Origin: a virus | Reading direction: 5' to 3' (one strand) | Length of the DNA: 40,936 bases | IMG/VR virus record: IMGVR_UViG_3300045612_000139 | Coordinates: 1 to 40,936 of that record | Shown here: positions 16,279 through 38,043 of the stretch, piece by piece | Layout of the letters: each line of letters begins with the position of its first letter | Position numbering within the stretch: the first letter of the stretch is position 1 | The notes under the pieces: model-generated | Seen by the model: the letters and a program-made list of their open reading frames with translations, nothing else | What the model was told of the DNA's origin: nothing | Databases searched by the model: none | Program-made: the position numbers and the translations under genes

Positions 16279-18309
16279 ATGAACAGAGCAGCCATCGCCT
16301 TAAGCATCAAGGCGGTTGACGACGACGCGCGCCGCATTGAGGGATGGGCATCGACCGTTGATCTGGACCGTATGGGAGACATCGTTCTTCCGCGCGGTGC
16401 GATCTACGAACTTCCCCTGCCCTTCCTGCTGGATCACGATCACAAACAGGCCGTGGGCGAGGTTGACCGCGTTGAGGTCACCGACAAGGGCATCAAGTTC
16501 TGGGCTCATATCAAGAAGATCGCCGAGCCTGGCGAGGTTAAAGACCTCTGCGACAAGGCGTGGTCCTTGGTCAAAAACGGCCTCCGCAAGGCAGTCTCCA
16601 TCGGGTTTGCAGCGCGCGAATTCGATGTGCTGCCGAGTGGCGGTCTGAAGTTCACATCGTGGGAATGGTTGGAGTTATCTGCGGTTACCGTGCCGGCAGC
16701 GGCTGGCGCACGGATCACCGGAGTCAAGAACTTCAATGTAGGCGACCGGTTTACCGCAGACGATCCCCGCGAAGACATCGACGCAGACGCTCAGGCCGCG
16801 ACGGGCCGCAAGAGCGCGAGCGGAGACCCGCCCGGCGCTCCGGGCAAGCCCGCGACGGCCATTCCGGCCGCCGCTGAACGCCAGACAAGGAGCATTCCCA
16901 TGGCGAACCGTACCGTGGCGGAACAGATCACCGCCTATCAATCCGCCCGTGAGACGAAGGCCGCGCGCATGACCGAAATCATGCAAGCCGCCGCTGACAA
17001 GGGCGAAACCCTCGACGCTGAGGCGACCGAGGAATACGACGGCCTCGACGCCGAGGTGAAGTCCATCGACGCCCACCTGAAGCGTCTCGACGCACTGGAG
17101 AAGGCCAACGCTGCGACCGCCAAGCCGGTTGACGGCGCCCTGGACACCAAGAGCGGTTCGGAGGCCCGCGCCCCGGCCCGCGTCGAGGTGAAGGCCGCAA
17201 ACCTGCCGAAGGGCACCGCCTTCACCCGCTATGCGATGGCGCTGGGCCGGTCGAAGGGCAACCTGATGCAGGCCGCTGAGATCGCCAAGGGCTGGGCGGA
17301 CTCGACCCCTGAAGTCGAGACCGTCCTGCGCGCCGCTGTCGCCGCCGGCACCACCACGGACACGGCCTGGGCGAAGCCCCTCGTCGAGTACGAAAACATG
17401 GCTTCGGAGTTCGCCGAACTTCTCCGCCCTCAAACCATCATCGGTCGCATCCCCGGCCTGCGTCGCGTTCCCTTTAATATCAAGGTTCCGCGTCAGACCG
17501 CCGGCTCGTCTGCCTCCTGGGTCGGGGAAGGCAAGCCCAAGCCGGTTTCGGCCCTGGCGTTCGATCAACTGACCCTGGGCCACACCAAGCTGGCCGGCAT
17601 CGTCGTTCTGACCGATGAACTGGTCCGCTTCTCGAACCCGGCCGCAGAGTCGATCGTTCGCCAAGACCTGATCGACACGATCGTGGCGACGATGGACAAG
17701 GACTTTGTGGACCCTGCCAACTCCGGCACCACGGATGTCAAACCGGCCTCGATCACCAATGGCGTGACCCCCGTCACCGCCTCCGGCACTGACGCCGACG
17801 CCGTCCGGGCCGATGTTAAGGCTCTACTGTCGAAGTTCCTGACCGCCAACCTGTCGCTGTCGGGCGCCGTGTGGATCATGAGCGAAGTGCAGGCCCTGGG
17901 CCTCGCCCTGATGCTGAACCCGCTCGGTCAGCCGGAATTCCCCGGCATCTCGATCAACGGCGCGTCCGGCGGCACCTTCTTCAATCTGCCGGTCGTCCTG
18001 TCCGAAAACGTCGTCGCCAATCCGGGTTCGGGCTCGCCCGTGACCGGTGACGGCGGCCGGATCATCCTGGCGAAGGCGAATGAGATCATGCTCGCCGACG
18101 ACGGTGAGGTGATGCTGGACGTCAGCCGCGAAGCCTCGCTCCAGATGGACAGCTCGCCGGATAGCCCGGCTGACGGCGACACCGTTCTGGTCTCGCTGTG
18201 GCAGCACAACATGGTCGGCATCCGCGCCGAACGCTTCATCAACTGGAAGAAGCGTCGCGCCGGGGCTGTCCAATACATCGACAGCGCCAACTACGGCGAC
18301 GCCGCCTAA
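16279..18309 (+). CDS. fused prohead protease and HK97 major capsid protein
   Basis: A 676-residue fusion. Residues 1-150 are an S78-type prohead protease (RIEGWASTVDLDRMGD; His53/His55 in LLDHDHK; Ser107 in RKAVSIGF). Residues 160-205 are a low-complexity linker. Residues 208-310 form the coiled scaffold-like delta segment, and the remainder (about 310-676) is the HK97-fold coat (VPFNIKVPRQT, SWVGEGKPKPVS, VVLTDELVRFSN). In most relatives protease and coat are separate genes. An internal AAGGAG and ATG at 16900 could also give the coat alone (469 residues). AGGAGG precedes the full-length ATG. Confidence 0.9.
   Translation: MNRAAIALSIKAVDDDARRIEGWASTVDLDRMGDIVLPRGAIYELPLPFLLDHDHKQAVGEVDRVEVTDKGIKFWAHIKKIAEPGEVKDLCDKAWSLVKNGLRKAVSIGFAAREFDVLPSGGLKFTSWEWLELSAVTVPAAAGARITGVKNFNVGDRFTADDPREDIDADAQAATGRKSASGDPPGAPGKPATAIPAAAERQTRSIPMANRTVAEQITAYQSARETKAARMTEIMQAAADKGETLDAEATEEYDGLDAEVKSIDAHLKRLDALEKANAATAKPVDGALDTKSGSEARAPARVEVKAANLPKGTAFTRYAMALGRSKGNLMQAAEIAKGWADSTPEVETVLRAAVAAGTTTDTAWAKPLVEYENMASEFAELLRPQTIIGRIPGLRRVPFNIKVPRQTAGSSASWVGEGKPKPVSALAFDQLTLGHTKLAGIVVLTDELVRFSNPAAESIVRQDLIDTIVATMDKDFVDPANSGTTDVKPASITNGVTPVTASGTDADAVRADVKALLSKFLTANLSLSGAVWIMSEVQALGLALMLNPLGQPEFPGISINGASGGTFFNLPVVLSENVVANPGSGSPVTGDGGRIILAKANEIMLADDGEVMLDVSREASLQMDSSPDSPADGDTVLVSLWQHNMVGIRAERFINWKKRRAGAVQYIDSANYGDAA
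16887..16902 (+). promoter_or_regulatory. internal ribosome binding site and start codon for the coat
   Basis: AAGGAG (16887-16892) lies 7 nt before an in-frame ATG (16900-16902, codon 208 of the fusion), exactly at the linker between protease and delta/coat domains. It would let coat be made in excess over protease-coat fusion, as structural needs require. Confidence 0.6.
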
Positions 18310-18649: not shown

Positions 18650-20005
18650 TTGCGCCTCTTTGGCCTGACGATCACCCGCGAAAAGTCGCTTGCGTCGGTT
18701 GACCAGCGCGGCGGCTGGTGGCCGATCGTTCGCGAGTCCTATGCCGGTGCATGGCAGGAGAATGTCGAGGTCAAGCTCGACTCCGTACTGTCGCATTCGG
18801 CCGTCTTCCGCTGCGTCTCGCTTATCGCGTCAGACGTGGCGAAGATGCGGATTCGTCTAGTCCAGGTCGATGACGACGGTATCTGGTCGGAGACCACCAG
18901 CCCTTCCTATTCCCCGGTCCTGCGTAAGCCGAACCGATTTCAGAACCGCATCCAGTTTTTCACGAACTGGATGGAGTCGAAGCTGACGCGCGGCAACACC
19001 TATGTGCTGAAAGAGCGCGACAATCGAGGCGTCGTGATCCGCCTTTATGTCCTCGACCCGGCGCGCGTGAAGCCGCTCGTGGCCGATGACGGGTCGGTAT
19101 ATTATGAACTGCGACAGGACACCCTTTCAGGGCTGACGGAGAGCGCCGTCGTGGTCCCCGCCAAGGAGATCATTCACGACCGCTGGAATACGCTTTTCCA
19201 TCCTCTGGTCGGCCTCTCCCCGATCTTCGCCAATGGCCTCGCCGCAACGCAGGGCCAAGCCATTCAGAATATGTCGGCGGGCTTCTTCCAGAACGGCGCC
19301 CAGCCCGGCGGTGTCCTGACCGCTCCAGGGGCCATCGCCGACGAAACGGCCGCTCGTCTGAAAGCGCATTGGGACGCAAACTATACAGGCAAAAACCGGG
19401 GCAAGGTCGCTGTTCTTGGCGACGGCCTCAAATACGAACCGATGACCGCCAAGATGGTCGACTCTCAACTGGTCGAACAGTTGAAGTGGTCGGCTGAAAC
19501 GGTGTGTTCTGTCTTTGGCGTTCCGGCCTACAAAGCAGGCGTCGGCCCTGCCCCGGCCTACAACAACGTCGAGGCTCTGAACCAGCAATACTATTCGGAC
19601 TGTCTCCAGATCCATATCGAGAGCGTCGAGCTTTGCCTTGACGAGGGGCTGGAGATGAAGCCGCCCTATGGGACGGAGTTCGACATTGACGACCTCCTCC
19701 GCATGGACACCGCGACGCAGATTGAGGCGCTGACCAAGGCGACGACCGGCGGGCTCATGAAACCGGACGAAGGGCGCAAGAAGCTGGGTCTGAAGCCAGT
19801 GGAGGGCGGCGACGCGGTTTACCTCCAACAGCAGAACTACTCGCTGGCCGCCTTGGCACGACGTGACGCTCAAGTTGATCCGTTTAATCCGGCGCCTACT
19901 GACACGCCCGCCGTGACGCCCGAACCGGCGAACGATGATGAAGCCCAGGCCCGCGCCTTAATTGCGCTCCTGGAGAAAGATTTCCGGGAGGCGCTGAATG
20001 CTTGA
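18650..20005 (+). CDS. portal protein, HK97 family
   Basis: A 451-residue portal, the dodecameric ring for DNA entry and tail joining. The core SAVFRCVSLIASDVAKM (about 47-63), FFTNWMESKLTRGNTYV (about 103-119), WNTLFHPLVGLSP (about 179-191) and ETVCSVFGVPAYKAG (about 282-296) are typical of the HK97 type. It starts with TTG at 18650, close behind the preceding stop and with GAGGG upstream; no ATG gives a better fit. The C-terminal tail is Pro/Ala-rich and acidic. It overlaps the collagen-like gene by 8 bp. Confidence 0.92.
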   Translation: MRLFGLTITREKSLASVDQRGGWWPIVRESYAGAWQENVEVKLDSVLSHSAVFRCVSLIASDVAKMRIRLVQVDDDGIWSETTSPSYSPVLRKPNRFQNRIQFFTNWMESKLTRGNTYVLKERDNRGVVIRLYVLDPARVKPLVADDGSVYYELRQDTLSGLTESAVVVPAKEIIHDRWNTLFHPLVGLSPIFANGLAATQGQAIQNMSAGFFQNGAQPGGVLTAPGAIADETAARLKAHWDANYTGKNRGKVAVLGDGLKYEPMTAKMVDSQLVEQLKWSAETVCSVFGVPAYKAGVGPAPAYNNVEALNQQYYSDCLQIHIESVELCLDEGLEMKPPYGTEFDIDDLLRMDTATQIEALTKATTGGLMKPDEGRKKLGLKPVEGGDAVYLQQQNYSLAALARRDAQVDPFNPAPTDTPAVTPEPANDDEAQARALIALLEKDFREALNA

Positions 20006-20903
20006 CACCAAGGCTATCGTCAGCGCCCTGGCGCCGATTGTGAAATCCCATGTCGCAGAGGCGACGGCTCCGCTTCTCGCGCGGATTGCGGAACTGGAAA
20101 AGCGCCAGCCTGAGCGGGGCGAGCCTGGTCAAAACGGCCGCGACGGCAAAGACGGCGCGGATGGCCGCGACGCAGAGCCGGTCACGGATGAACAGATCGC
20201 CGCCGCTGTCGAACGCTTCTTGACCGCCAATCCGCCCCCTGCCGGCAAAGATGGACGCGACGGCATAGATGGTAATGATGGTGCACCGGGTCTCGACGCC
20301 GACATGGACGCGCTCAAGGCTCATTGCGAGGGCCTTATCGCCGCCCTGCCGAAACCTGAGAACGGCAAAGACGGTCGCGATGGAATCGACGGCAAGGACG
20401 GCGCACCTGGCGAAAAAGGTGCTGACGGTCTCGACGGCAAGGATGGCGCCGACGGTGTCGGCCTCGCCGGGGCTATGATCGACCGCGACGGCGAACTGAA
20501 TGTCACCCTGACGAACGGCGAAGTCCGCAGGCTTGGGCCGGTCGTCGGTCGTGACGGTAAGGACGGGGATCGCGGCGAGGCCGGGTTCTCCCTGACGGAC
20601 TTCGACACTGACTGGAGACCGGATGAAAAGATTCTTGTCCTCTCCTGGGACGCCGGGGATTACCGCTACAGCCATGAACTGTTCATCCCGTACCTTCGCG
20701 ATGCTGGGGTCTGGAGCGAAGGCGCGACCTATCTGAAGGGTGACGGCGTTACCTGGGGCGGCTCGCTCTGGATCGCTCAGGACGACACGGCAGACCGTCC
20801 CGAAGCGGGCAAGTCGTGGCGGCTGGCGGTGAAGCGCGGCCGTGATGGCAAGGACTTTGCCGGACCCCAGCCCTCGACGCCGACAACGGTCAAGGTGTCC
20901 TGA
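19998..20903 (+). CDS. collagen-like fibre protein with C-terminal binding module
   Basis: A 301-residue protein. After an N-terminal coiled coil (1-35) it has two collagen-like Gly-X-Y blocks (about 41-55 and 76-95, mainly GRDGKDG), a third longer block (about 118-150), a small beta domain, and a C-terminal module (about 230-285, VWSEGATYLKGDGVTWGGS with aromatic residues) like carbohydrate-binding domains of structural phage proteins. It lies between portal and connector genes, so it is probably a head fibre that helps the particle stay near surface sugars. It overlaps portal by 8 bp, with GGGAGG before the ATG. Confidence 0.8.
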   Translation: MLDTKAIVSALAPIVKSHVAEATAPLLARIAELEKRQPERGEPGQNGRDGKDGADGRDAEPVTDEQIAAAVERFLTANPPPAGKDGRDGIDGNDGAPGLDADMDALKAHCEGLIAALPKPENGKDGRDGIDGKDGAPGEKGADGLDGKDGADGVGLAGAMIDRDGELNVTLTNGEVRRLGPVVGRDGKDGDRGEAGFSLTDFDTDWRPDEKILVLSWDAGDYRYSHELFIPYLRDAGVWSEGATYLKGDGVTWGGSLWIAQDDTADRPEAGKSWRLAVKRGRDGKDFAGPQPSTPTTVKVS

Positions 20904-21208
20904 TGGTCGCCCTCGTCACGGTGGATCGCGCCAAGGCTCACCTTCACATCGAAGGTGAAGATCAAGACGATGAACTGGCCTTGAAGGTCAGCGACGCCTC
21001 CGAAACGGTCATCGACTATCTGAAGCGGCCCGACCATGGCTGGACCGATGAAAGCGCCCCCGGTCAGGTCCAAGCCGCCGTTCTTCTCGTCCTGGGCGCC
21101 CTTTGGTCTCAGCGCGAAGGTGTAGGTCAGAACGCCGAAGACCTTGATCCTATCTCTCCCGCCGTTGTCTCGCTGTTGCGCCGTATGCGCGACCCGGCGA
21201 TTGCCTGA
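20903..21208 (+). CDS. head-tail connector (gp6-like)
   Basis: A 101-residue helical protein. VDRAKAHLHIEGEDQDDELALKVSDASETVIDYL is divided between the typical connector helices (about 6-40), and VQAAVLLVLGALWSQRE (about 56-72) is the family's central helix. It docks to the portal to form the neck. The start overlaps the previous stop by one base. Confidence 0.85.
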   Translation: MVALVTVDRAKAHLHIEGEDQDDELALKVSDASETVIDYLKRPDHGWTDESAPGQVQAAVLLVLGALWSQREGVGQNAEDLDPISPAVVSLLRRMRDPAIA

Positions 21209-21219
21209 AGGAGTCCGCG

Positions 21220-21420
21220 ATGCGTGTCCGCTTCACCGCACCTTTCGATTACACCCCGGCTGAAGAGCCCCGCGTTCTGGTCGCCTATTCGCCATCTGGC
21301 GGGGCTGACAAGGACGGGGAATACACCGTGCGCCGTGAATGCGGCGAGGCGGCCGTGGCGCAAGGCAAGGCGGTTGAGGTCGAAGCTCCGTCCCGCAAGG
21401 CTGACAATGCCGAAACCTAA
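21220..21420 (+). CDS. small hypothetical neck-region protein
   Basis: A 66-residue protein with AAGGAG upstream. MRVRFTAPFDYTP and EYTVRRECGEAAVAQGKA resemble small phage proteins found between connector genes; no assigned function. It overlaps the head closure gene. Confidence 0.7.
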   Translation: MRVRFTAPFDYTPAEEPRVLVAYSPSGGADKDGEYTVRRECGEAAVAQGKAVEVEAPSRKADNAET

Positions 21421-21766
21421 AGGCGCGGGCGACCTTCGTCACAGGGTCTATTTCGAGCGTCGGGCTGAAGGTGACGACGAATACGGAAACCCGGTTCAGG
21501 ATTGGGCCGCGCTTGGCATCAGCCGGGCCGCGAGCCTGACACCGACGCGGGGCTCTGAAACGGTCCAGTCGGATCGTCTTTCAGGCCGGGTCCAATGGGA
21601 TTGCTGGGTCAGGTCAGACAGCGGGACGCGGACGATCCAGACCGGCGACCGGATGGTGGATGAGCGCGACCCTACCCGGACATTCAATATCGGCTTCATT
21701 GGGGACATGGACGGCGACCGGACCTGGATTCTAATCCAGGCGATGTCGGGAGTGGCGGATGGGTGA
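21407..21766 (+). CDS. head closure / head-tail adaptor protein
   Basis: A 119-residue protein of the phage head-tail adaptor family: GDLRHRVYFERRAEG near the N terminus, a central WDCWVRSDSGTRTIQTGDRMV and a C-terminal ILIQAMSG, the usual beta-barrel. It closes the neck after packaging. The frame extends further upstream, but the ATG at 21407, 14 bp inside the preceding gene, gives the normal family start. Confidence 0.85.
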   Translation: MPKPKGAGDLRHRVYFERRAEGDDEYGNPVQDWAALGISRAASLTPTRGSETVQSDRLSGRVQWDCWVRSDSGTRTIQTGDRMVDERDPTRTFNIGFIGDMDGDRTWILIQAMSGVADG

Positions 21767-21983
21767 GATCGAAACCCTGCTGATCAAGGTGGAGGCCAAT
21801 CAGCGGCAGTTCGACGCTGCCCTGAAAGGCTTGCGTGTCCACCCTGCCCTTACTCGCCAGCCCATCAGCGGGAAGCCCGTCACGACGGGAGACGAGACCT
21901 TCTTCCCGACGATTGGTTATCGCTGGCGGTTCAGCTTCAAGACCTATTTCCGAAACCTCTGGCGAGCGCTTCTCGGTGGCTAA
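21759..21983 (+). CDS. small protein with tape-measure-like N terminus
   Basis: A 74-residue protein. Its first 24 residues (IETLLIKVEANQRQFDAAL) closely resemble the start of the tape measure protein at 25270 (IERLLVRVEANASQFEAQM). The remainder is unrelated and ends in an amphipathic, Trp/Arg-rich segment (YRWRFSFKTYFRNLW). It overlaps both neighbours by 8 bp. It could be a decoy or companion that binds tape-measure chaperones, or a fragment left by recombination. Neither is established. Confidence 0.6.
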   Translation: MGEIETLLIKVEANQRQFDAALKGLRVHPALTRQPISGKPVTTGDETFFPTIGYRWRFSFKTYFRNLWRALLGG

Positions 21984-22395
21984 GGGCGGGCTTGAAGGCG
22001 TCGAGCGTCTGACCCGCAAACTGGCCGCCATGACCCCCTCCGTCAGGAAGGCGGCGGGGCAGGAGGCGTTTCTTCAAGCCGAAGAGATGGCCGCCCAGAT
22101 GCGCCGGATCGCCCCTCGGGATGAAGACCCGAACAACGGCGAGCAAGTCCGCGACCATATCCACGTCGAGGAAGGGCGTTTGGGTGACGTGTCCTATGTC
22201 GTGATCAGCGACGCAAAGGACGCCAAGGGCCGGCCGAAAGCGTCTCGCGTCGAGTTGGGCCATGTCGCCGTCAACGGCCGATACGTCGAGCCCAGCCCGT
22301 CCTTCTACCCCGTCGTCCGCTCCAGCCAGCGCAAGGTCAAGCGGCGGATCGCCAACGCCATGCGCCGGGCCATCAAGGCAGAGGCCGCCAAATGA
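21976..22395 (+). CDS. HK97 gp10-like tail completion protein
   Basis: A 139-residue protein with a GTG start 8 bp inside the previous gene. LEGVERLTRKLAAMTPSVRKAAGQ (split about 5-28) and EVEFGH-like RVELGHVAVNG (about 95-105), followed by PSPSFYPVVRSS, are signature segments of the HK97 gp10/tail completion family. It caps the tail tube at the head side. Overlaps the DUF3168 gene by 4 bp. Confidence 0.85.
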   Translation: MAKGGLEGVERLTRKLAAMTPSVRKAAGQEAFLQAEEMAAQMRRIAPRDEDPNNGEQVRDHIHVEEGRLGDVSYVVISDAKDAKGRPKASRVELGHVAVNGRYVEPSPSFYPVVRSSQRKVKRRIANAMRRAIKAEAAK

Positions 22396-22814
22396 TCGAC
22401 CCGCAACTTCCGCTCCAGGCGGCCATCGTCGCGGCCGTGAAGGCCGACGCTGAACTGAACACCCTGATCAGCGGACGCATCTTCGACCGGGTGCCGGTCA
22501 ATCAAGACGGAAGCCCACAGGGACCGTTCCCCTATCTGAGTTTCGGGGCGGCCGACACGACAGACGAAGGCGTGTCCTGCGTCGGGCCATCGGATTGCTA
22601 CATTGATCTCAACGGCTGGTCCCGCGCGGTCGGCTATCCCGAGATCAAGCGCATCGGCGCCCGCGCCGCCACCGTCCTGAACGCCAGGCTCACGGTTGCC
22701 GGGTTCGAAGTCGTGACGCACCGGGTAGAGCGTCTTTCCTATCAGCGTGAACAGGACGGGCTCACCAGCCGGGCCATCCTTCGTCTGCGCTACGGCCTCC
22801 GCAAGGCCGCCTGA
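22392..22814 (+). CDS. tail completion protein, DUF3168 family
   Basis: A 140-residue DUF3168 protein: LQAAIVAAVKADAELNTLISGRIFD (split about 6-30), then FPYLSFGAADTTDEG and the C-terminal SRAILRLRYGLRKAA. It acts as the tail terminator between neck and tube. ATGA overlap with the gp10-like gene. The 64-nt gap that follows contains no other gene. Confidence 0.87.
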   Translation: MIDPQLPLQAAIVAAVKADAELNTLISGRIFDRVPVNQDGSPQGPFPYLSFGAADTTDEGVSCVGPSDCYIDLNGWSRAVGYPEIKRIGARAATVLNARLTVAGFEVVTHRVERLSYQREQDGLTSRAILRLRYGLRKAA

Positions 22815-22878
22815 TCCCGCACTCAGCGGGCTATCCCGCCCCTTCCTGGGGTTTCCTTCGACAGAGAAAGGCATCCGC

Positions 22879-23313
22879 ATGTCGGACGTTTTCGTGAGCG
22901 TCGTCTCGGGCGAGGAAATCCTCGTTCAGATCGGCGACGGTGCAGACCCCGAAGTCTTCACCCATGACTGCATGATCAACGGCTCGCGCGGTTTCAACCG
23001 CACGGCCACCACGACGGATCAACAGATCCCAAACTGCACTGATCCGTCAAAGCCGCCCAAGACGATGCGCCGGGTGGACTCGACGGACACCACCATTTCG
23101 GGCGAGGGGCTTCTTCACTCGACCTCGACCTTGGCCTGGCTGAACCGTGTCGGGCAGACCATCAACTGCCGTGTCCGCAAAGCCGGCGCCTTTCAAGTCG
23201 AAGGGCCGTACATCCTCACGGAGTTCAGCCTGACCGGAAATGCCCGTGAATACGCCACGGCCTCGATCACTCTGGTCCAGGCCGACGAACCGACGATCAC
23301 GGCTGGCAGCTGA
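22879..23313 (+). CDS. major tail tube protein
   Basis: A 144-residue beta-rich protein. SGEEILVQIGDGADPE at the N terminus, GFNRTATTTDQQIPNCTD in the middle and the repeated hydrophobic-alternating strands resemble TP901-1/GTA-type tail tube proteins. Its position, after the tail terminator and before the chaperones, is diagnostic. Ribosome binding site AGAAAGG about 8 nt upstream of the ATG. Confidence 0.85.
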   Translation: MSDVFVSVVSGEEILVQIGDGADPEVFTHDCMINGSRGFNRTATTTDQQIPNCTDPSKPPKTMRRVDSTDTTISGEGLLHSTSTLAWLNRVGQTINCRVRKAGAFQVEGPYILTEFSLTGNAREYATASITLVQADEPTITAGS

Positions 23314-23768
23314 TGAGCCGCAGCGCCCGCATCACCGCTCCCTTCGGCGATGGAACCTACACCTTCCGGCTCGACATCAGCGGGCTGGAAGAGTTGCAGG
23401 AGAAGACCGACGCCGGGCCGGAGCAGATCTATGCCGACATCGCGTCAGGCCAGTGGAGGGTCGCTCACCTGAGAGAGACGATCCGCATCGGTCTGATCAG
23501 GGGCGGCATGGAGCCGGTGCGGGCGCTCGCCATGGTCGCGCGATATGCGGCCGAGGGCTATCTGGCGGACCTCAAACCCCTGGCCCTCAACATCATCGCC
23601 GCCGCCCTGGTCGGCGCCCCTGATGAGGACAAGCCAGCGGGGGAGTCCGAGGCGGGGGCGAAAGACCCCTCCCCCGCCGGAAGATCAGATTCGGCGAGTT
23701 CTACGCAGCCGGAGCGCAAATCGGCCTCGCCCCGAGCCAGGTCGAAGAAAGTAGCATCTGGCAGCTAG
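23313..23768 (+). CDS. tail assembly chaperone, frame-0 product
   Basis: A 151-residue protein of the gene-transfer-agent/phage tail chaperone kind: the N-terminal beta strand FGDGTYTFRLDISGLEELQ (about 9-27), then IRIGLIRGGMEPVRALAMV. Residues 1-105 look coherent. From about residue 106 the in-frame sequence becomes low-complexity Ser/Pro/Lys, while the -1 frame reads a sensible protein (see next entry), so this product is the short form. It binds the tape measure during tail assembly. Start ATG overlaps the tail tube stop. Confidence 0.85.
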   Translation: MSRSARITAPFGDGTYTFRLDISGLEELQEKTDAGPEQIYADIASGQWRVAHLRETIRIGLIRGGMEPVRALAMVARYAAEGYLADLKPLALNIIAAALVGAPDEDKPAGESEAGAKDPSPAGRSDSASSTQPERKSASPRARSKKVASGS

Positions 23769-23878
23769 GCGAGGCTCATCGGGGCTGGCGCCGAGCCCAG
23801 GGCATCGAGGAGAAGGCGGGCGCTCCGTCGATTGACGCTTTCGAGGCGGCGGTGAAGCGGGCTAGGCTCGATCCCTGA
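23627..23878 (+). CDS. tail assembly chaperone, -1 frameshift extension
   Basis: The -1 frame is open from 23627 to the TGA at 23876-23878 and encodes a conserved-looking segment (KIRFGEFYAAGAQIGL, IWQLGEAHRGWRRAQG, FEAAVKRARLD). No ATG, GTG or TTG occurs in this frame before the conserved part, so it can only be made by ribosomal frameshifting from the preceding gene, as in lambda G/GT. The slip must occur between 23627 and 23768. No textbook X_XXY_YYZ heptamer is present; C-runs near 23666-23675 and GGGG runs near 23639 and 23654 are candidates. Confidence 0.7.
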   Translation, partial: GQASGGVRGGGERPLPRRKIRFGEFYAAGAQIGLAPSQVEESSIWQLGEAHRGWRRAQGIEEKAGAPSIDAFEAAVKRARLDP

Positions 23879-23894
23879 AAAGGGAGAGATTCAC

Positions 23895-24446
23895 ATGCTG
23901 CGCATTACGGCGATTGTAACGTGTCTGGCTGTCCTGGCCTGCCCGGTGGCATCGCAGGCGCAAACGACGTTCTCTGTGGGGCCGGACTTTACGCCACAGG
24001 TGAAGCAGCTTAGCGATGATTTCAGCGCCGCTCGAGTGGCGGAAGTCGAAGTGGGGAGCTTTTCGCACCCATCCTTCGATCGTCTTGAGGTCAGCATCAA
24101 TGTTTCCAAGGGCGGCGGTCAGACGCTCTATGGGCTTCTGCTGACCTTTCGCGAGATGCGTATGCCCGGTGAGGTGTATTCCGTGGCCGCAAGGGGCGGC
24201 TTGAGCTTTGAGCCGTTTTCATCAGGACGGTCGGGCCGTCTGAACTGTAGTGTTCGGCGCAGAAGCTATTGCACGTCCTTCTTCTTGCAAACTTTTTTGA
24301 TCCCCGAAGAAGTTCTCGCTGACTTAGCTGCTGGCCGGGACGTAGATGTACAGGTTCGAACCAATGAACCCCACGAGGGAACCGTGATCATTAGCGTTCC
24401 GCATTCTGCCCACGAAGCGCTCCGGCAGTGGGCAGCGGATCACTGA
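23895..24446 (+). CDS. exported accessory protein (moron)
   Basis: A 183-residue protein with a Sec signal peptide: a hydrophobic core ITAIVTCLAVLACPV followed by a likely cleavage after AQA near residue 22. The mature part is beta-rich, with two cysteines (in NCSVRRRSYC, about 118-127) that could form a disulphide. No family is recognised. It interrupts the tail operon between the chaperones and the tape measure, and converges with a minus-strand repressor gene, so it is likely a lysogen-expressed 'moron' that alters the cell envelope or blocks superinfection (inference). Confidence 0.72.
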   Translation: MLRITAIVTCLAVLACPVASQAQTTFSVGPDFTPQVKQLSDDFSAARVAEVEVGSFSHPSFDRLEVSINVSKGGGQTLYGLLLTFREMRMPGEVYSVAARGGLSFEPFSSGRSGRLNCSVRRRSYCTSFFLQTFLIPEEVLADLAAGRDVDVQVRTNEPHEGTVIISVPHSAHEALRQWAADH

Positions 24447-24640
24447 TCGCCCAGGCCACCCGCCTCTAACGCCGCCAGGATCATAGCGCGTATCGCTTCA
24501 GAGCGGTTAGCTCCCCGCTCCACGGCCCACTTATCGATTTTCTCAACTACGTCGGGGGGGAGGCGAACCCCTACTAAGGGATCACGACCCGTCGCGGGCC
24601 GTCCTCTTCTTTTCGGTTTAACCGCTATTGACGAAGCCAT
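24440..24640 (-). CDS. ribbon-helix-helix (CopG-like) DNA-binding protein
   Basis: A 66-residue RHH protein. A basic N-terminal arm (VKPKRRGRPATG) is followed by the strand LVGVRLPPDVV (about 22-32) and the helices EKIDKWAVERG and NRSEAIRAMILAALE (about 45-59). Such proteins bind palindromic operators as dimers and usually repress their own gene. It is the only leftward gene in the tail region and overlaps the exported protein's end by 7 bp. No Shine-Dalgarno is visible before its ATG, so it may be leaderless. Confidence 0.85.
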   Translation of the reverse strand: MASSIAVKPKRRGRPATGRDPLVGVRLPPDVVEKIDKWAVERGANRSEAIRAMILAALEAGGLGDQ

Positions 24641-24704
24641 GATTGCGGTTTAACAAAAAGTCAGCCCGGCGGGAAGCGCCAACTTCCTCACCGGGCCTAA
24701 CCGC
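24614..24704. promoter_or_regulatory. repeated GCGGTTTAAC operator-like motifs
   Basis: The palindrome CGGTTTAACCG (24614-24624), a second GCGGTTTAAC (24645-24654) and a third in reverse, CTAACCGC (24697-24704), flank the RHH gene's ATG and reach toward the endonuclease gene. A fourth related GCGGTTAG is at 24503-24510. Repeats of this kind next to an RHH gene suggest autoregulation. Confidence 0.45.
24664..24696 (-). terminator. stem-loop upstream of the RHH gene
   Basis: GCCCGG/CCGGGC with an inner GGAAG/CTTCC forms an interrupted stem. On the minus strand it is followed by TGACTTTTTG, so it can end leftward transcription arriving from the tape measure side. The gap 24641-24728 holds this, the operator repeats and nothing else. 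Confidence 0.45.
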
Positions 24705-24728
24705 AACGGATCGCAAGAGGATCACGTC

Positions 24729-25307
24729 ATGGCTTCCACAGCCAATAGCACACGCGTGCCGCCTGGACGTAGGGCGGTAAACATGGGTGATGTCGTCACA
24801 TGCTCCCGCTGCAAAGCGGGCCTGCCTAGATCAGCCTTTTACAAGTCAACCTACAAGAAAAACGGCCTCCAATCGGCCTGCAAATCGTGTAGCGATGCCT
24901 GGCGCGCAGAGAAAAAGGCCCAGAGCGAAGAGTTCAGAGATCGTCAGCGCGCGTACTCGCGTAAGTGGGCGGCGGCAAACCGCCAACAAATGCTCGACCT
25001 CTATCGATGCTATAACATGAGGCGGAAATACGGGCTTTCCGCTGAGGATGTGACCGCGTTCCATTCGGCACATGATGATGGGTGCGCCATCTGCGGTGAA
25101 AAGAAGCCGCTGTCGATCGACCACAACCACGCGACCGGTCAGGTGCGGGGTTCGCTTTGCGCAGATTGCAATTTCGGCATCGGCAACTTCAAAGACTCTA
25201 TACCGCTGCTTGCTAGGGCGGTTCTGTACCTTTCCATGCAGCCAGAACACTCGGAGGCGGTGAATATAAATGTCCGACGAGATAGAAAGGCTTCTAGTAA
25301 GGGTTGA
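24729..25307 (+). CDS. HNH endonuclease, recombination endonuclease VII type
   Basis: A 192-residue protein. An N-terminal zinc module (CSRCK about 26-30, CKSCSDAW about 51-58) is followed by a basic helix and the endonuclease VII domain: CAICGEKKPLSIDHNHATG (about 117-135) and GSLCADCNFGIGNFKDS (about 139-155). The DHNH is the catalytic site. In T4 this fold cuts branched DNA; free-standing copies in phages often act as homing nucleases. It overlaps the tape measure start by 38 bp, which suggests it entered by insertion. Confidence 0.87.
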   Translation: MASTANSTRVPPGRRAVNMGDVVTCSRCKAGLPRSAFYKSTYKKNGLQSACKSCSDAWRAEKKAQSEEFRDRQRAYSRKWAAANRQQMLDLYRCYNMRRKYGLSAEDVTAFHSAHDDGCAICGEKKPLSIDHNHATGQVRGSLCADCNFGIGNFKDSIPLLARAVLYLSMQPEHSEAVNINVRRDRKASSKG

Positions 25308-28041
25308 GGCCAACGCATCTCAGTTCGAGGCGCAGATGCGGAAGCTCAACAAGAGCCTCTACGCATCGCAGGCCGAAAACCGGAAGACGCTGAACGCGAT
25401 TCAGAAAGACACTGAGGCGGCTTCGCGGCGGATGTTCACTCCCATCGGGGATGGACTCCGTAGGGAAGTGGCTAGCCTTGCCGGCGTTTTCGCTGGGCTG
25501 TTCACCACGCAGCAAGTTGCCCGTTACGCCGACCAATACACGAGCCTCCAGAACAGGTTGAAAGCGGCGGGGCTTGAGGGCGAAAATCTCAAGCGAGTGG
25601 AGGACGCCCTTTATGAGACGGCAAACCGGAATGGGCTTCAGGTCCAGGCCACAGCCGAACTGTATCAGCGCGCCTCTCTTTCACGGCAACGTCTGGGCGC
25701 CAGCGAGCAGCAACTCCTAGCTCTGGTCTCTGGCACAGCGGCCGCGCTGAAGGTGCAGGGCACTTCTGCTGAGGCGGCATCTGGCCCTTTGCTTCAGTTG
25801 GGGCAGGTCCTTGGCGGGGCGAAGGTCCAAGCCGAAGAATACAATAGTTTGATCGACGGCTTGCCGGTTCTGCTCCAGGCTGCAGCCAAAGGCTCCGATC
25901 GTTTCGGTGGCGATGTGGCAAAGCTGACTGAGGCGGTGAAGTCGGGTTCGGTCAGCAGCCAAGAGTTTTTCCAAGCCTTGCTCAAAGGCTTTCCCGAAAT
26001 CCAGAAGCAGGCTGAGGGCTCGGCGACCACCATCAGCAGCGCACTGCAAACGCTGGACAATGAGTTCGGTCGGTATATCGGCCGAGCCGATGAAAGCCTG
26101 TCGGCATCACAGCGCGTTGCCCAGGGTATTCAGGGTCTCGCGGAGAACCTAGATCAGATCATTCCAGTTGTCGGCGTGTTGGCTGCGCTGATTGGTGGTG
26201 GGTACGTCGCTTCGCTCACTATGGCTGCGAGCCAAATGGCGATAGCGGGCTTGAACGCCGCCCGGCTGACCGCTTTCAACATCGCTATGACAGCTAGCAT
26301 GACAGGGGCCACTCGCGCTCAGGTCGCGCTCAACCTGGCAATGGCGGCGAACCCCGTAGGCCTTGTCGTCACTGTGGTTGCGGCACTGGCGGCAGGCCTT
26401 TACGTCCTGGCAACCAGATACAACACGACCGCCATCGCGGCGCGTGAACTAGATAAGGTTGTCGGTGCGGCCGACACGGCTTTGGAGGACTATCGAAAGG
26501 CAGTCGACGCGGCCAAAAACGCCTCAGCTGCTGAACGTGTGGAGCTGGACAAAAAGGCTCAGGCACTACGCAATGTGACCTTAGCGCGCATCAACGATGC
26601 TAAGGTCGCTGCCCAAAAGCAGATCGATGAGGCAGTCGCAGCGCGTCAGCGGGCCGACCGATCAATAGGCGATTCCGCAGACGCAAGATCTCGCGCCTTC
26701 GCTAACCCGAACAATGCCAACGCGGCCTTGGCGGGTGGCGCGTCCTCCCAAGCACGCGCCAATATCTCGCTAGCCGTGCGCGCTAGGCAAGAAGCAGACA
26801 CGGCTATACGAGCATATGAACGCCTCAAGGGCGCGATGGAGAACATTGATAATCCGCGTTCTGGCGGTGGTGCTCCCCCAGCTCCCTCCCCGGACGCAGG
26901 ATCGTCGCGCGGATCCTCAGATGCCAACCGTACATCTGATCTTCGTGAGCGCCTTTCTCTGGAAGAGGATCTAGCGCGTGTCCGCGCGACTGGCGACGAA
27001 GCCGCAATCAAGCGCGAGGAAGAGCGCCAGCGGATCATCGAAGCGACGGAGCGCTATCGCGAGGCCGGATATGAGGACGCCGCCCAGCGCGCAATCAATC
27101 TCATCGCGGCCGAGAACCAGGCTGAAGACGTCGCGGAGCAGCGCGAGCGGACACAGACCCGTATTCGTGAAGGCATTGAGCGCGAAGCCGAACTGAAGCG
27201 CCAGGCTGCGGACTGGACAGAGCGCCAGCACAGCGCAGAACTTGAAATCGCTCGGCTTCGCGGAGACGACGCAGCCATCCGGCGCTTGGAACGCGAAGCT
27301 GCTCTTCGTCAGCGGATCGCCGAATATGTTGAGCGGTATGGTGTCGCGGGCGTCGGCCTGGCCGTTGCTGAGCAACTGAAGTTCGACCAAGCCGCGTCGG
27401 AAGGCGACATGAACTATGCCGCCGAGAACGCCGCCCGAACCTTTGTCGATGTCATCGCGGCTGATGATCCGTGGGAGGCGGCGGGCAATGCATTCAAACG
27501 CGCCGCCTTCGACAATCTGGAGAGCCTCTTCTCAAACGTCTTCAAGTCGTTGATGAGCAATAACAAGGACGGCGGCGGCCTGCTAGGTTCCATCGCCTCG
27601 GGCCTCCAGTCATGGTTCGGCGGCAAGGGCAGCTTTGACAGCGGCGGCTATACCGGTCCTGGCGGCAAACACGACGTTGCGGGATTGGTTCACCGTGGCG
27701 AGGTGGTCTTCTCGAAAGCCGATATCGCCCGTCATGGCGGCGTCGGGGCGGTCGAAGCCATGCGCAAAGGCCTTCCGGGATACGCTGATGGCGGAGTGGT
27801 TACGGCTCGACTGAACAGTTCCATCCTGACCAACGGGCAGATGCGCGGGCTCCAGACAGGAAGCGTTCGCACCAGCGGCGGCGTTCTCGCCGTTACGGTA
27901 GATGTGTCGGGCGCCAACGGCGACGCAGCCGTGGCGGCCATTGCGGAAGCTGCGGCGCGGCGGGGTGCAGAGGCGGCGGTCGCCCAATCCCGCGCCGATC
28001 AAGCCCAGGCCAATGCAGCGAAGCGGTACAGGCTGAAATGA
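25270..28041 (+). CDS. tape measure protein
   Basis: A 923-residue protein that sets tail length and helps DNA ejection. The N-terminal part (1-75) is helical with the family's VEANASQFEAQMRKLNKSL. The region 85-215 is the tape measure domain (LYETANRNGLQVQATAELYQRAS). Hydrophobic segments at about 300-330 and 355-380 are the membrane-spanning portion. A long coiled coil (about 540-680) and a Gly-rich C-terminal stretch (SGGYTGPGGKHDVAGLVHRGE) follow. It has GAG-rich upstream sequence and lies over the end of the HNH gene. Confidence 0.93.
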   Translation: MSDEIERLLVRVEANASQFEAQMRKLNKSLYASQAENRKTLNAIQKDTEAASRRMFTPIGDGLRREVASLAGVFAGLFTTQQVARYADQYTSLQNRLKAAGLEGENLKRVEDALYETANRNGLQVQATAELYQRASLSRQRLGASEQQLLALVSGTAAALKVQGTSAEAASGPLLQLGQVLGGAKVQAEEYNSLIDGLPVLLQAAAKGSDRFGGDVAKLTEAVKSGSVSSQEFFQALLKGFPEIQKQAEGSATTISSALQTLDNEFGRYIGRADESLSASQRVAQGIQGLAENLDQIIPVVGVLAALIGGGYVASLTMAASQMAIAGLNAARLTAFNIAMTASMTGATRAQVALNLAMAANPVGLVVTVVAALAAGLYVLATRYNTTAIAARELDKVVGAADTALEDYRKAVDAAKNASAAERVELDKKAQALRNVTLARINDAKVAAQKQIDEAVAARQRADRSIGDSADARSRAFANPNNANAALAGGASSQARANISLAVRARQEADTAIRAYERLKGAMENIDNPRSGGGAPPAPSPDAGSSRGSSDANRTSDLRERLSLEEDLARVRATGDEAAIKREEERQRIIEATERYREAGYEDAAQRAINLIAAENQAEDVAEQRERTQTRIREGIEREAELKRQAADWTERQHSAELEIARLRGDDAAIRRLEREAALRQRIAEYVERYGVAGVGLAVAEQLKFDQAASEGDMNYAAENAARTFVDVIAADDPWEAAGNAFKRAAFDNLESLFSNVFKSLMSNNKDGGGLLGSIASGLQSWFGGKGSFDSGGYTGPGGKHDVAGLVHRGEVVFSKADIARHGGVGAVEAMRKGLPGYADGGVVTARLNSSILTNGQMRGLQTGSVRTSGGVLAVTVDVSGANGDAAVAAIAEAAARRGAEAAVAQSRADQAQANAAKRYRLK

Positions 28042-28628
28042 CGATCACGCTTCAGGCGCTGCCCAGCACCACGACCTATGAATTCCGGGAGGTCGCGGCG
28101 GGGAATGTCCTGCGCCCGGCCTTCGGCGGGTCGAACCAGCCGCTGGCCCGAAAAGGCGATCATTGGGCGTGGGACGTGACCATTCCGGCGCTTGATGCGC
28201 GCGCCTGTGGCATGGGCCTGTTCGCTGATCTGACACGCGGAAAGCGTGAACCGATCGTCATGGCGGTGCCGGACTATGCCCCCCCTCAGTCCTATGGCGC
28301 CGCCCCGGTCTGCAACGGGGTTGCGATGGGAAACGCCGTACCGGTTCGGGGCCTGACGCCATCGGTCCCGATCCAAAAGGGCAAGTGGATGTCTCTGGTC
28401 CTGAACGGTCAGCGGTACCTCTATCTGGTCGCGGCCGATGTCGTGGCGGATGGATCTGGAGAGGCGCTTATTGAAGTGACCTCGCTTCTGCGGCGTCCGA
28501 CGATTGACGGGGCGGCGGTTGAACTCGCCACGCCCAAGGTCGAGGGCCTCGTTCCGGCGAACCAGTCAGCGTCTCTGGCGACGCTGCCGGCCGTTGGCCT
28601 TCAGTTCACGATCGAGGAGCGGGACTGA
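28038..28628 (+). CDS. distal tail-like protein
   Basis: A 196-residue, mostly beta protein directly behind the tape measure (ATGA overlap). It contains RPAFGGSNQPLARKGDHWAW (split) and ISVPDYAPPQSYG, and fits the position of a distal tail (Dit) ring protein that links tube and tip. The assignment is by position and predicted fold. Confidence 0.65.
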   Translation: MTITLQALPSTTTYEFREVAAGNVLRPAFGGSNQPLARKGDHWAWDVTIPALDARACGMGLFADLTRGKREPIVMAVPDYAPPQSYGAAPVCNGVAMGNAVPVRGLTPSVPIQKGKWMSLVLNGQRYLYLVAADVVADGSGEALIEVTSLLRRPTIDGAAVELATPKVEGLVPANQSASLATLPAVGLQFTIEERD

Positions 28629-35911: not shown

Positions 35912-36259
35912 ATGGTGGTGCAACCCTACGTCTTCACGCGCGGTGAAACCGTGTCGGTGGCGCTCGAAAACATGGACGGAGCGGAAGTCACCGACTTCGC
36001 GGCTGGGCTGAAGCGCCGCGACAGCCCCTTCGCAGACCCCAAGGGCGCTGTCCTCGCCTACATGACCGCAGAGGCCCGCCAGAGTCTCGGAGACGGCCTT
36101 GGGGGGGGCTGGCTGCTGTCGCTCACCCCGGCGCAGTCCCTGGCCCTCACGCCAGGCTTCTACGCCCTCGACGCCCGCCTGACGATTGGCGAGTTTGTCG
36201 AGATAACCGACACCGTGACGATCCAGATCAAGGCCGGGGTCATGGAGAGCGCCAGATGA
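35912..36259 (+). CDS. hypothetical fibre-region protein
   Basis: A 115-residue beta-rich protein ([37 protein letters not shown]) with CGGAGG upstream and an ATGA overlap with the fibre gene. The pattern suggests an immunoglobulin-like domain of the tail fibre complex, but the family is not recognised. Confidence 0.65.
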
Positions 36260-38043
36260 TCGCGCGGTTCCGCTGGATCGCTCAGCAAGGCCCGACGCTT
36301 CCGGTGATCGCCGCCGTGATCGGTCCAAGAGGCCCCCAAGGCCCCCAGGGCGAAACCGGCCCCCAAGGCCCCCAGGGCGAAACCGGCCCCCAGGGCGTCC
36401 AGGGCGAAACCGGCCCCCAGGGTCCGAAGGGCGACACGGGCGACACCGGTGCGCAGGGGCCGAAGGGCGACACGGGCGTCCAGGGCGAACCCGGCCCCAA
36501 GGGCGACACCGGCCCCAAGGGCGACACGGGGGCGCAGGGGGTGAAAGGCGATAAGGGAGATGCCGCCTGGTCGCCCGTCTACGCCAACGTAGCAGACGGA
36601 ATCCGCCGTGTGCTGCGCGTCGTGGATTGGACGGGCGGTCAAGGGACCAAACCCGCGACGGGCAAATACCTCGGCCCCGCTGGTTTTGTGGACACGGCGG
36701 CAGAGGCGACGGACATTCGCGGCGCGTCTGGCGCAGGCACCGGCGACATGCTGGCGTCCTACAACCTTAGCGACGTCACCAACAAGGAGATTGCTCGGCA
36801 GAACCTGTCGGTGTGGTCCCGTGCGGAAATCGGCCCGGTTGACGCCGACTATCTGTCCATCATCGACGCCGCTGATCAGGCGGGGCTGTCATTTGCGCCC
36901 ACGGGGATCAACTTCGCCAAGAACACGGGGCGGCTGGATTATGTGGATGCGGCGTCGGCGGCGGCTGTTCCGGGCCTGACCTATACCCGCACGGGCGCTG
37001 CTACGGCATGGCGGAAAGACGGGACGCTGCAAGAGTTCGCGCCGAACGTCATGCGGCGCACCGACGCGGGCGTGACGATTGAGGGGCAGCGGACGAATCT
37101 GTTTGCGCGGTGGGACCCGACAGCGACTCAGATTGGGACGAAGAACAACTGTGCCGACGCGACGGCTCCGGCAGTCGCGCCGCTGGCTGGGCGCAACTGG
37201 ATCGCGCTGGATAATACAAGCGCCATTGCCTATGCGTATGCAGCTGGCTCAGTGGCGGCCTCGACGCAAGTCACCTTTACGTTTTTGGTAGAAACAAGCG
37301 ACGGCTCTCAGCCAGTTTTCGGTGACGGACCAGCCGCTGACTTTCATATTGGCATGGCCGGGGGTAACAGCCCCACGGCTACTAGCGCCAAATATACGAG
37401 ACGTGCAGGAAATGTTTGGGAAGTAAACGTAACAGGGACATCTCCGTCTTCGGGAGCGACGACGGCCTGCGGGCCGCTGCGGAGAACCACCCACTCCACC
37501 CGCCCCCTCAAGTTCTCCGGCTTCCAGCTTGAGCAGGCCTCCACCGCCTCCAGCCCCATCATCACCACGGGCGCAGCGGCGACGCGGGGGGCGGACGTAC
37601 TGTCGCTAAGCAGGCCGCTCGGAGCGGCGGAGGACTTCACGCTGATCGGCGAGGCCGAGTTCCTGACTTCCGGAGACGGGGTGACCCCTTCGCGCCTTTT
37701 CGAATGGGATGACGGCAACGCGACCAATCGTCTGGTGGTTCAGAGAAGCCCCAGCGGAAACTTCTCCGGTATTGTCGTCCGAAGCGGCGCGAACACTGAG
37801 ATACCTGGTGCCCAAAAACAGGGCGCTCGGATCGTGCGCTTTGCCGTGAGCCGGTCGGGTAAGGCGACGAAGCTTGCTCTGGACGGGGTGGTGAACGCGT
37901 CCGTTGAGACTGACTTGGCTGCGCTCACTACCCTGTTCATCGGTTCTGGCCGTGGAGGAGCCCCAAGCAACGCCTTCGTCCGCCGCCTCGTCATCCTGCC
38001 CTACGCCCTGACCGACGCCGAGCTGATGGAGATGACCAAATGA
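36256..38043 (+). CDS. collagen-repeat tail fibre / adhesin
   Basis: A 595-residue fibre. Residues 25-100 are a run of about 25 Gly-X-Y triplets ([22 protein letters not shown]), forming a collagen-like shaft. Then come a shoulder domain (about 105-215), a beta domain (about 220-440) and a LamG/concanavalin-like C-terminal region (about 445-590, [35 protein letters not shown]). It probably binds surface sugars. The middle part of the DNA (37,230-37,460) is less GC-rich than its surroundings, as expected of a swapped receptor-binding domain. Confidence 0.85.
36331..36558 (+). repeat. tandem collagen-coding repeats
   Basis: Repeated 18-bp-based units (GGCCCCCAGGGCGAAACC and variants with AAGGGCGACACC) encode the Gly-X-Y shaft. 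Such repeats can expand or contract by slippage, changing fibre length. Confidence 0.85.

Follow-up and report, generated by a model that had tools for sequence, protein, structure and literature searches.

Tail assembly chaperones produced with a programmed frameshift have long been known, including in phages of alphaproteobacteria. The cited portions of this literature describe lambda gpG and gpGT as tail assembly chaperones made with a −1 programmed frameshift (Levin 1993, Xu 2004), with the short form pairing with the tape measure protein and the extension with the tail tube subunit (PMC5009743). They list lambda, P2, L5, TM4, phiC31, HK022 and HK97 as confirmed cases (PMC5313236) and give measured rates of 6% and 7% for two genes from an HK97-like chaperone cluster (PMC3711429), which we take as a guide to the expected rate. 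In the same excerpted literature, phiCbK-like Caulobacter phages use AAAAAAC or GGGAAAC (PMC3556154), and the usual frameshift is noted as missing from one Rhodobacter phage, in contrast to most others covered there (PMC8601537). The excerpt on PRFect reports that all of the approximately one thousand 'fivetwo' motifs in the SEA-PHAGES data are GGGGGAA (PMC10885494).

The window (the whole stretch of DNA that was analysed, 40,936 nucleotides) has the gene content of a tailed phage, with portal, capsid, tail tube and tape measure matches. It contains a GTA-gp10 (Phage_TAC_11) family gene, very probably a tail assembly chaperone gene translated with an ordinary programmed −1 ribosomal frameshift, a reading to which we assign a probability of roughly 0.95. 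The features of the locus are the following:

22879–23313, plus strand: tail tube protein gene (PF06199, E 4.5e-11), its stop overlapping the start of ORF1
23313–23768, plus strand: ORF1, zero frame, 151 aa, tail assembly chaperone of the GTA-gp10/Phage_TAC_11 family with a gpG-like product (PF11836, E 2.4e-20; phrog_8985, E 1.7e-30)
23625–23629, plus strand: Shine-Dalgarno-like GAGGA, 10 nt upstream of the heptamer
23627–23878, plus strand: open −1 frame relative to ORF1, with post-slip reading from 23645 to the stop at 23876–23878 (predicted 188-aa fusion)
23639–23645, plus strand: proposed slip heptamer G_GGG_GAG, zero-frame codons GCG GGG GAG
23651–23678, plus strand: possible stimulatory hairpin, an 8-bp stem of 23651–23658 with 23671–23678, 5 nt past the heptamer; a candidate confined to the window's close kin
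23684–23845, plus strand: conserved core of the second domain, a gpT-like extension, limits approximate (alignment A2; phrog_18467)
25270–28041, plus strand: tape measure protein gene (PF20155, E 2.3e-46)

ORF1 occupies the usual place of frameshifted tail assembly chaperones. It runs from an ATG at 23313 to a stop at 23766–23768 and is flanked by the tail tube and tape measure genes, with further ORFs intervening before the latter. The intervening stretch (23895–25307), where close relatives have other reading frames at the same place, holds an ORF without a Pfam or PHROG match (23895–24446), a minus-strand ribbon-helix-helix (CopG-like) ORF within 24440–24649 and an endonuclease VII-like gene (24729–25307). 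Elsewhere in the window, the beginning of a 676-aa ORF (16279–18309) matches prohead protease (Peptidase_S78) and the end of the same ORF matches phage capsid, and the two seem to be fused. Collagen-repeat matches are found in two further ORFs, one at 36256–38043 and one at 19998–20903, the latter starting at the end of the portal gene, which is an unusual place. A near-identity DNA search of positions 20000–28600 against a phage collection returned no match.

The family of ORF1 is probably better described as tail assembly chaperone than as tail tube protein. ORF1 scores 72.9 bits against PF11836 (Phage_TAC_11), above the curated cut-off of 27.8, and is thus a member of a family that both Pfam and PHROGs label as tail tube protein. 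Gene order and the conserved frameshift speak for the chaperone assignment, as does, more tentatively, a fold match at E 7.1e-4. This fold match, between the confident ORF1 structure model (pLDDT 87.3) and an annotated tail assembly chaperone, is followed in the list by weaker matches labelled chaperone or tail tube protein; N15 GT is matched at E 0.33 only. No PDB match to the ORF1 model was found at E 0.001, and profile searches with both ORF1 and the second domain gave no convincing solved relative. The paper on the RcGTA structure (PMC7296036) makes no mention of a chaperone, g10, Rcc01693 or a frameshift.

The second domain lies in a −1 frame without a start codon of its own. The first-pass annotation had described an extension of the chaperone gene in a −1 frame open at 23627–23878, lacking ATG, GTG or TTG before its conserved part and facing a low-complexity end of frame 0, and it is borne out in all three respects: the sole such codon, a GTG at 23852, is located past the conserved part, and S, P, A and K abound in frame 0 after about codon 111. 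The second domain product matches phrog_18467, a family without an assigned function, with an E of about 1.7e-6 to 1.9e-6 for the window, and 28 of the 30 members of alignment A2 match it. Its structure model is moderate (pLDDT 73.9) and has no viral match at E 0.001. No Pfam family is common to the second domains, the five single matches being at chance level.

A heptamer within the overlap represents the candidate slip site. The same annotation had seen neither GGGAAAG nor a clear X_XXY_YYZ here; the overlap in the window indeed contains no strict in-phase XXXYYYZ heptamer, but G_GGG_GAG, one base off XXXYYYZ, had been overlooked. It spans ORF1 codons 109–111 and starts 12 bases after the opening of the −1 frame, and both its phase and its position are conserved among relatives. 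The accompanying suggestion of P-site slippage on C- or G-runs is supported for a G-run, that of GGGGGAG, but not for the C-run, which lies after the heptamer. Slippage on the C-run and on a second G-run was rejected: both are located 3′ of the heptamer, frame 0 in other relatives stops soon after the heptamer, and L005 and L006 no longer have the second G-run. The motif GGGGGCGA at 23654–23661, which we take to be the −2 slip motif of phage Mu, lies 8 bases past the heptamer and overlaps the possible hairpin. A Mu-type −2 (equivalent to +1) frameshift was also rejected, given that such a shift would miss the −1 frame of the second domain and that GGGGGCGA is lost in L005 and L006.

The −1 arrangement and the slip site are conserved across related loci. 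A first survey of zero-frame codons at the overlap covered 41 entries (the window, L001–L031 and L036–L044) and identified G_GGG_GAG as the recurring element, with other relatives carrying the canonical G_GGA_AAA or G_GGA_AAG at the same place. A listed heptamer is present in 39 of these entries, window included, the exceptions being L030 and L041; in two of the 39, L036 and L043, the heptamer is C_GGA_AAA with an A-run. For a larger set, 80 more loci, the best-ranked 80 among 560 confirmed ones, were added and profiles of the two domains were used. Both domains were found in 124 of 125 entries, and L073, whose contig ends inside ORF1 and has no second domain, was dropped. Removing duplicates with identical DNA from ORF1 through the end of the second domain reduced the 124 entries to 96 distinct loci, window included; L125–L128 were examined and are outside the counts. 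One of the six patterns in the first locus search spans the site peptide, which introduces a small bias, while the pattern of the later 80-locus search does not. Many of the 96 loci are close kin and the counts are therefore not independent.

Of the 96 loci, 93 place the second domain in the −1 frame, two (L041 and L110) have it in frame and one (L091) in the +1 frame. The proposed comparison with homologous phages shows a conserved overlap, with an in-phase heptamer in 90 of the 93 −1 loci. Directly joined frames, which on resequencing had been named in advance as evidence against a frameshift, are confined among the relatives to the two natural in-frame fusions. A-runs are observed at the homologous domain junction of L091 and L110, possibly reflecting transcriptional slippage or indels. 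The 90 heptamers comprise GGGGGAG (51), GGGAAAA (24), GGGGGAA (6), AAAAAAA (5), GGGAAAG (3) and AAAAAAG (1). No slip site was found in the overlap of L030; L081 and L082 have only G_GAA_AAG at the site, and in L029 the −1 frame ends after 40 codons. As a control, in-phase codons further upstream in ORF1 carry one of these heptamers in 5 of 9628 cases. Around the site they occupy 100 of 1898 in-phase positions, and in each of the two remaining phases the corresponding numbers are 5 and 3 of 1898. The glycine codon is GGG in 57 of 84 cases at the site and in 177 of 979 upstream, a comparison that is partly circular because sites were picked by their heptamer.

Selection follows the frame change. 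We calculated pN/pS for the 28 pairs among eight close relatives of equal length (the window and L001–L007). Before the heptamer, ORF1 codons 1–104 show a frame 0 value of 0.25. After the heptamer, values are 1.06 for frame 0, 0.28 for frame −1 and 1.34 for frame +1, and past the ORF1 stop frame −1 reaches 0.14. The constrained frame switches between the 20-codon blocks starting at codons 101 and 111. The tail of frame 0 is therefore hardly constrained, and the −1 frame is protein-coding from the heptamer onward. Stop codons bound both frames closely and thereby pin the location of the site: the −1 frame opens at most four codons (1–4) before the heptamer in 35 of 90 loci, and frame 0 ends at most 12 codons after it in 22 of 90. 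In phage HMSP1-Susan (L128, outside the counts) the sequence reads ACG GGG GAG TAG, placing a frame 0 stop directly 3′ of the heptamer, and the −1 frame extends over 79 codons, starting at the heptamer and reaching into a second domain that is divergent. On comparative sequence evidence the −1 arrangement is more than chance, the relation being kept in 93 of 96 loci and the −1 frame being under purifying selection.

Start codons and database annotations bear on whether the second domain could be a separate gene with its own start, for example a non-standard ATC at 23684, translated through coupling or re-initiation. Several GenBank relatives do have a short second ORF annotated, and in 13 of 90 loci the core edge falls on an ATC codon. 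In Labrenzia phage vB_LagS-V1 the annotated second ORF starts from a GTG at the core edge that overlaps the ORF1 stop, so coupling could work there; this phage also retains GGGGGAG, and a separate gene leaves the conserved heptamer unexplained. An independent start in relatives was looked for, and ATG, GTG and TTG are absent before the domain core in 92 of the 93 −1 loci, L040 having a TTG adjoining the core. Together with the frame counts this supports the earlier claim that the extension is reached by a −1 shift only. The near-cognate codons ATT, ATC, ATA and CTG are also absent in 40 of 90 loci and none is common to all loci; just four such codons overall have a Shine-Dalgarno-like box, that of the window not among them. 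Among ten GenBank records, no joined gene across the site is annotated in the stretches shown. Judged by position, six of them (16-3, RHph_TM3_3_14B, vB_MseS-P1, RHph_X2_25, Nsp-JY10 and HMSP1-Susan) start the second ORF well inside the conserved domain, while ppBeUSDA76-1 and NV1.1.1 have no second ORF annotated. RHph_X2_26 has both domains in one gene of 190 aa, compared with the predicted 188 aa in the window. We consider a separately started gene very improbable.

Equally improbable is transcriptional slippage, in which RNA polymerase would drop or add bases at a run and join the frames in some mRNAs. Such a mechanism would suit the few relatives with A-runs at the site (AAAAAAA in 5 and AAAAAAG in 1 of 90) as well as the junctions of L091 and L110, but the run in the window consists of five G's only, and GGGGGAR or GGGAAAR, as expected when tRNAs slip, makes up 84 of 90 sites. 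Short runs of G generally serve poorly as sites of transcriptional slippage. A single gene broken by sequencing or assembly error or by mutation in the window phage is the least probable explanation, since, although two of 96 relatives do have both domains in one frame, a −1 relation in 93 of 96 distinct loci on many separate contigs, with a conserved overlap, makes a local error impossible for the family.

Two possible stimulators of the proposed −1 frameshift were considered, a downstream hairpin and an upstream Shine-Dalgarno-like box. The hairpin of the window has a G-C stem with z-scores of −2.14 on 45 nt and −0.82 on 100 nt. It shows no covariation or compensatory change across 12 rows, and one of the slid controls forms pairs just as well. 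As a general signal the hairpin was rejected, with a median z of −0.13 over 90 loci and 15 of 90 below −2. Strong predicted hairpins are located directly 3′ of the heptamer in Rhizobium phage 16-3 (L037:2466–2510, z −6.2) and Sinorhizobium phage NV1.1.1 (L044:2798–2842, z −4.8). P2-like chaperone sites are described as being without a hairpin in the cited part of PMC3091744. Shine-Dalgarno-like boxes upstream of the heptamer are present in 57 of 90 loci, compared with a mean of 10.1 for 74 control boxes; one control box does as well, reaching 62, and the upstream box is kept as a candidate element.

We propose the following course of events at this locus. Most ribosomes would read ORF1 to its stop and yield the 151-aa chaperone, similar to lambda gpG. 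A minority would slip back by one base on G_GGG_GAG and continue in the −1 frame to 23878, yielding the predicted 188-aa fusion, similar to gpGT. During the slip, the P-site tRNA-Gly would re-pair perfectly from GGG to GGG, and the A-site tRNA-Glu would re-pair from GAG to GGA with a single G-U at the middle position. As in lambda, the short form may bind the tape measure protein and the extension may bring in the tail tube subunit. That the slip takes place, how often it does so and what the two products do are inferred.

More tentatively, and with somewhat less than even confidence, we suggest that G_GGG_GAR, with A-site re-pairing via a middle-position G-U, could be the commonest chaperone slip signal in related phages. 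It would have been swapped with G_GGA_AAR repeatedly at a single fixed position, no conserved hairpin being present, and slipping would be driven mainly by P-site re-pairing on the G-run. If this is true, the family offers a natural series for measuring which tRNA decides −1 slippage. In any case, the slip heptamers of these loci make up a natural series at a single homologous position. The analysis also supplies the missing half of the chaperone, which is missed or truncated in the annotations compared, that of Rhizobium phage 16-3 included.

In layout, the locus resembles lambda gpG/gpGT in its place before the tape measure gene, the −1 frame, a second domain without a start and the expectation of two nested products. 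It differs in its heptamer, GGGGGAG; lambda's GGGAAAG is found in 3 of 90 loci at the homologous place. A phage paper pairing GGGGGAG with a frameshift was not found among the titles and abstract openings considered. GGGGGAG departs by one base from a known class, the SEA-PHAGES 'fivetwo' motifs being GGGGGAA. Compared by motif letters, and as far as the excerpt on those motifs goes, both systems have a G-run heptamer in the tail chaperone overlap, and GGGGGAA itself occurs in 6 of 90 loci; the heptamer of the window differs in ending in G, a change at the wobble position of the A-site codon only, and the hosts differ. With the phiCbK-like phages, as portrayed in the cited excerpt, the locus shares an alphaproteobacterial setting and a −1 frameshift, here a proposed one, in a chaperone gene before the tape measure gene, while the heptamers used are different.
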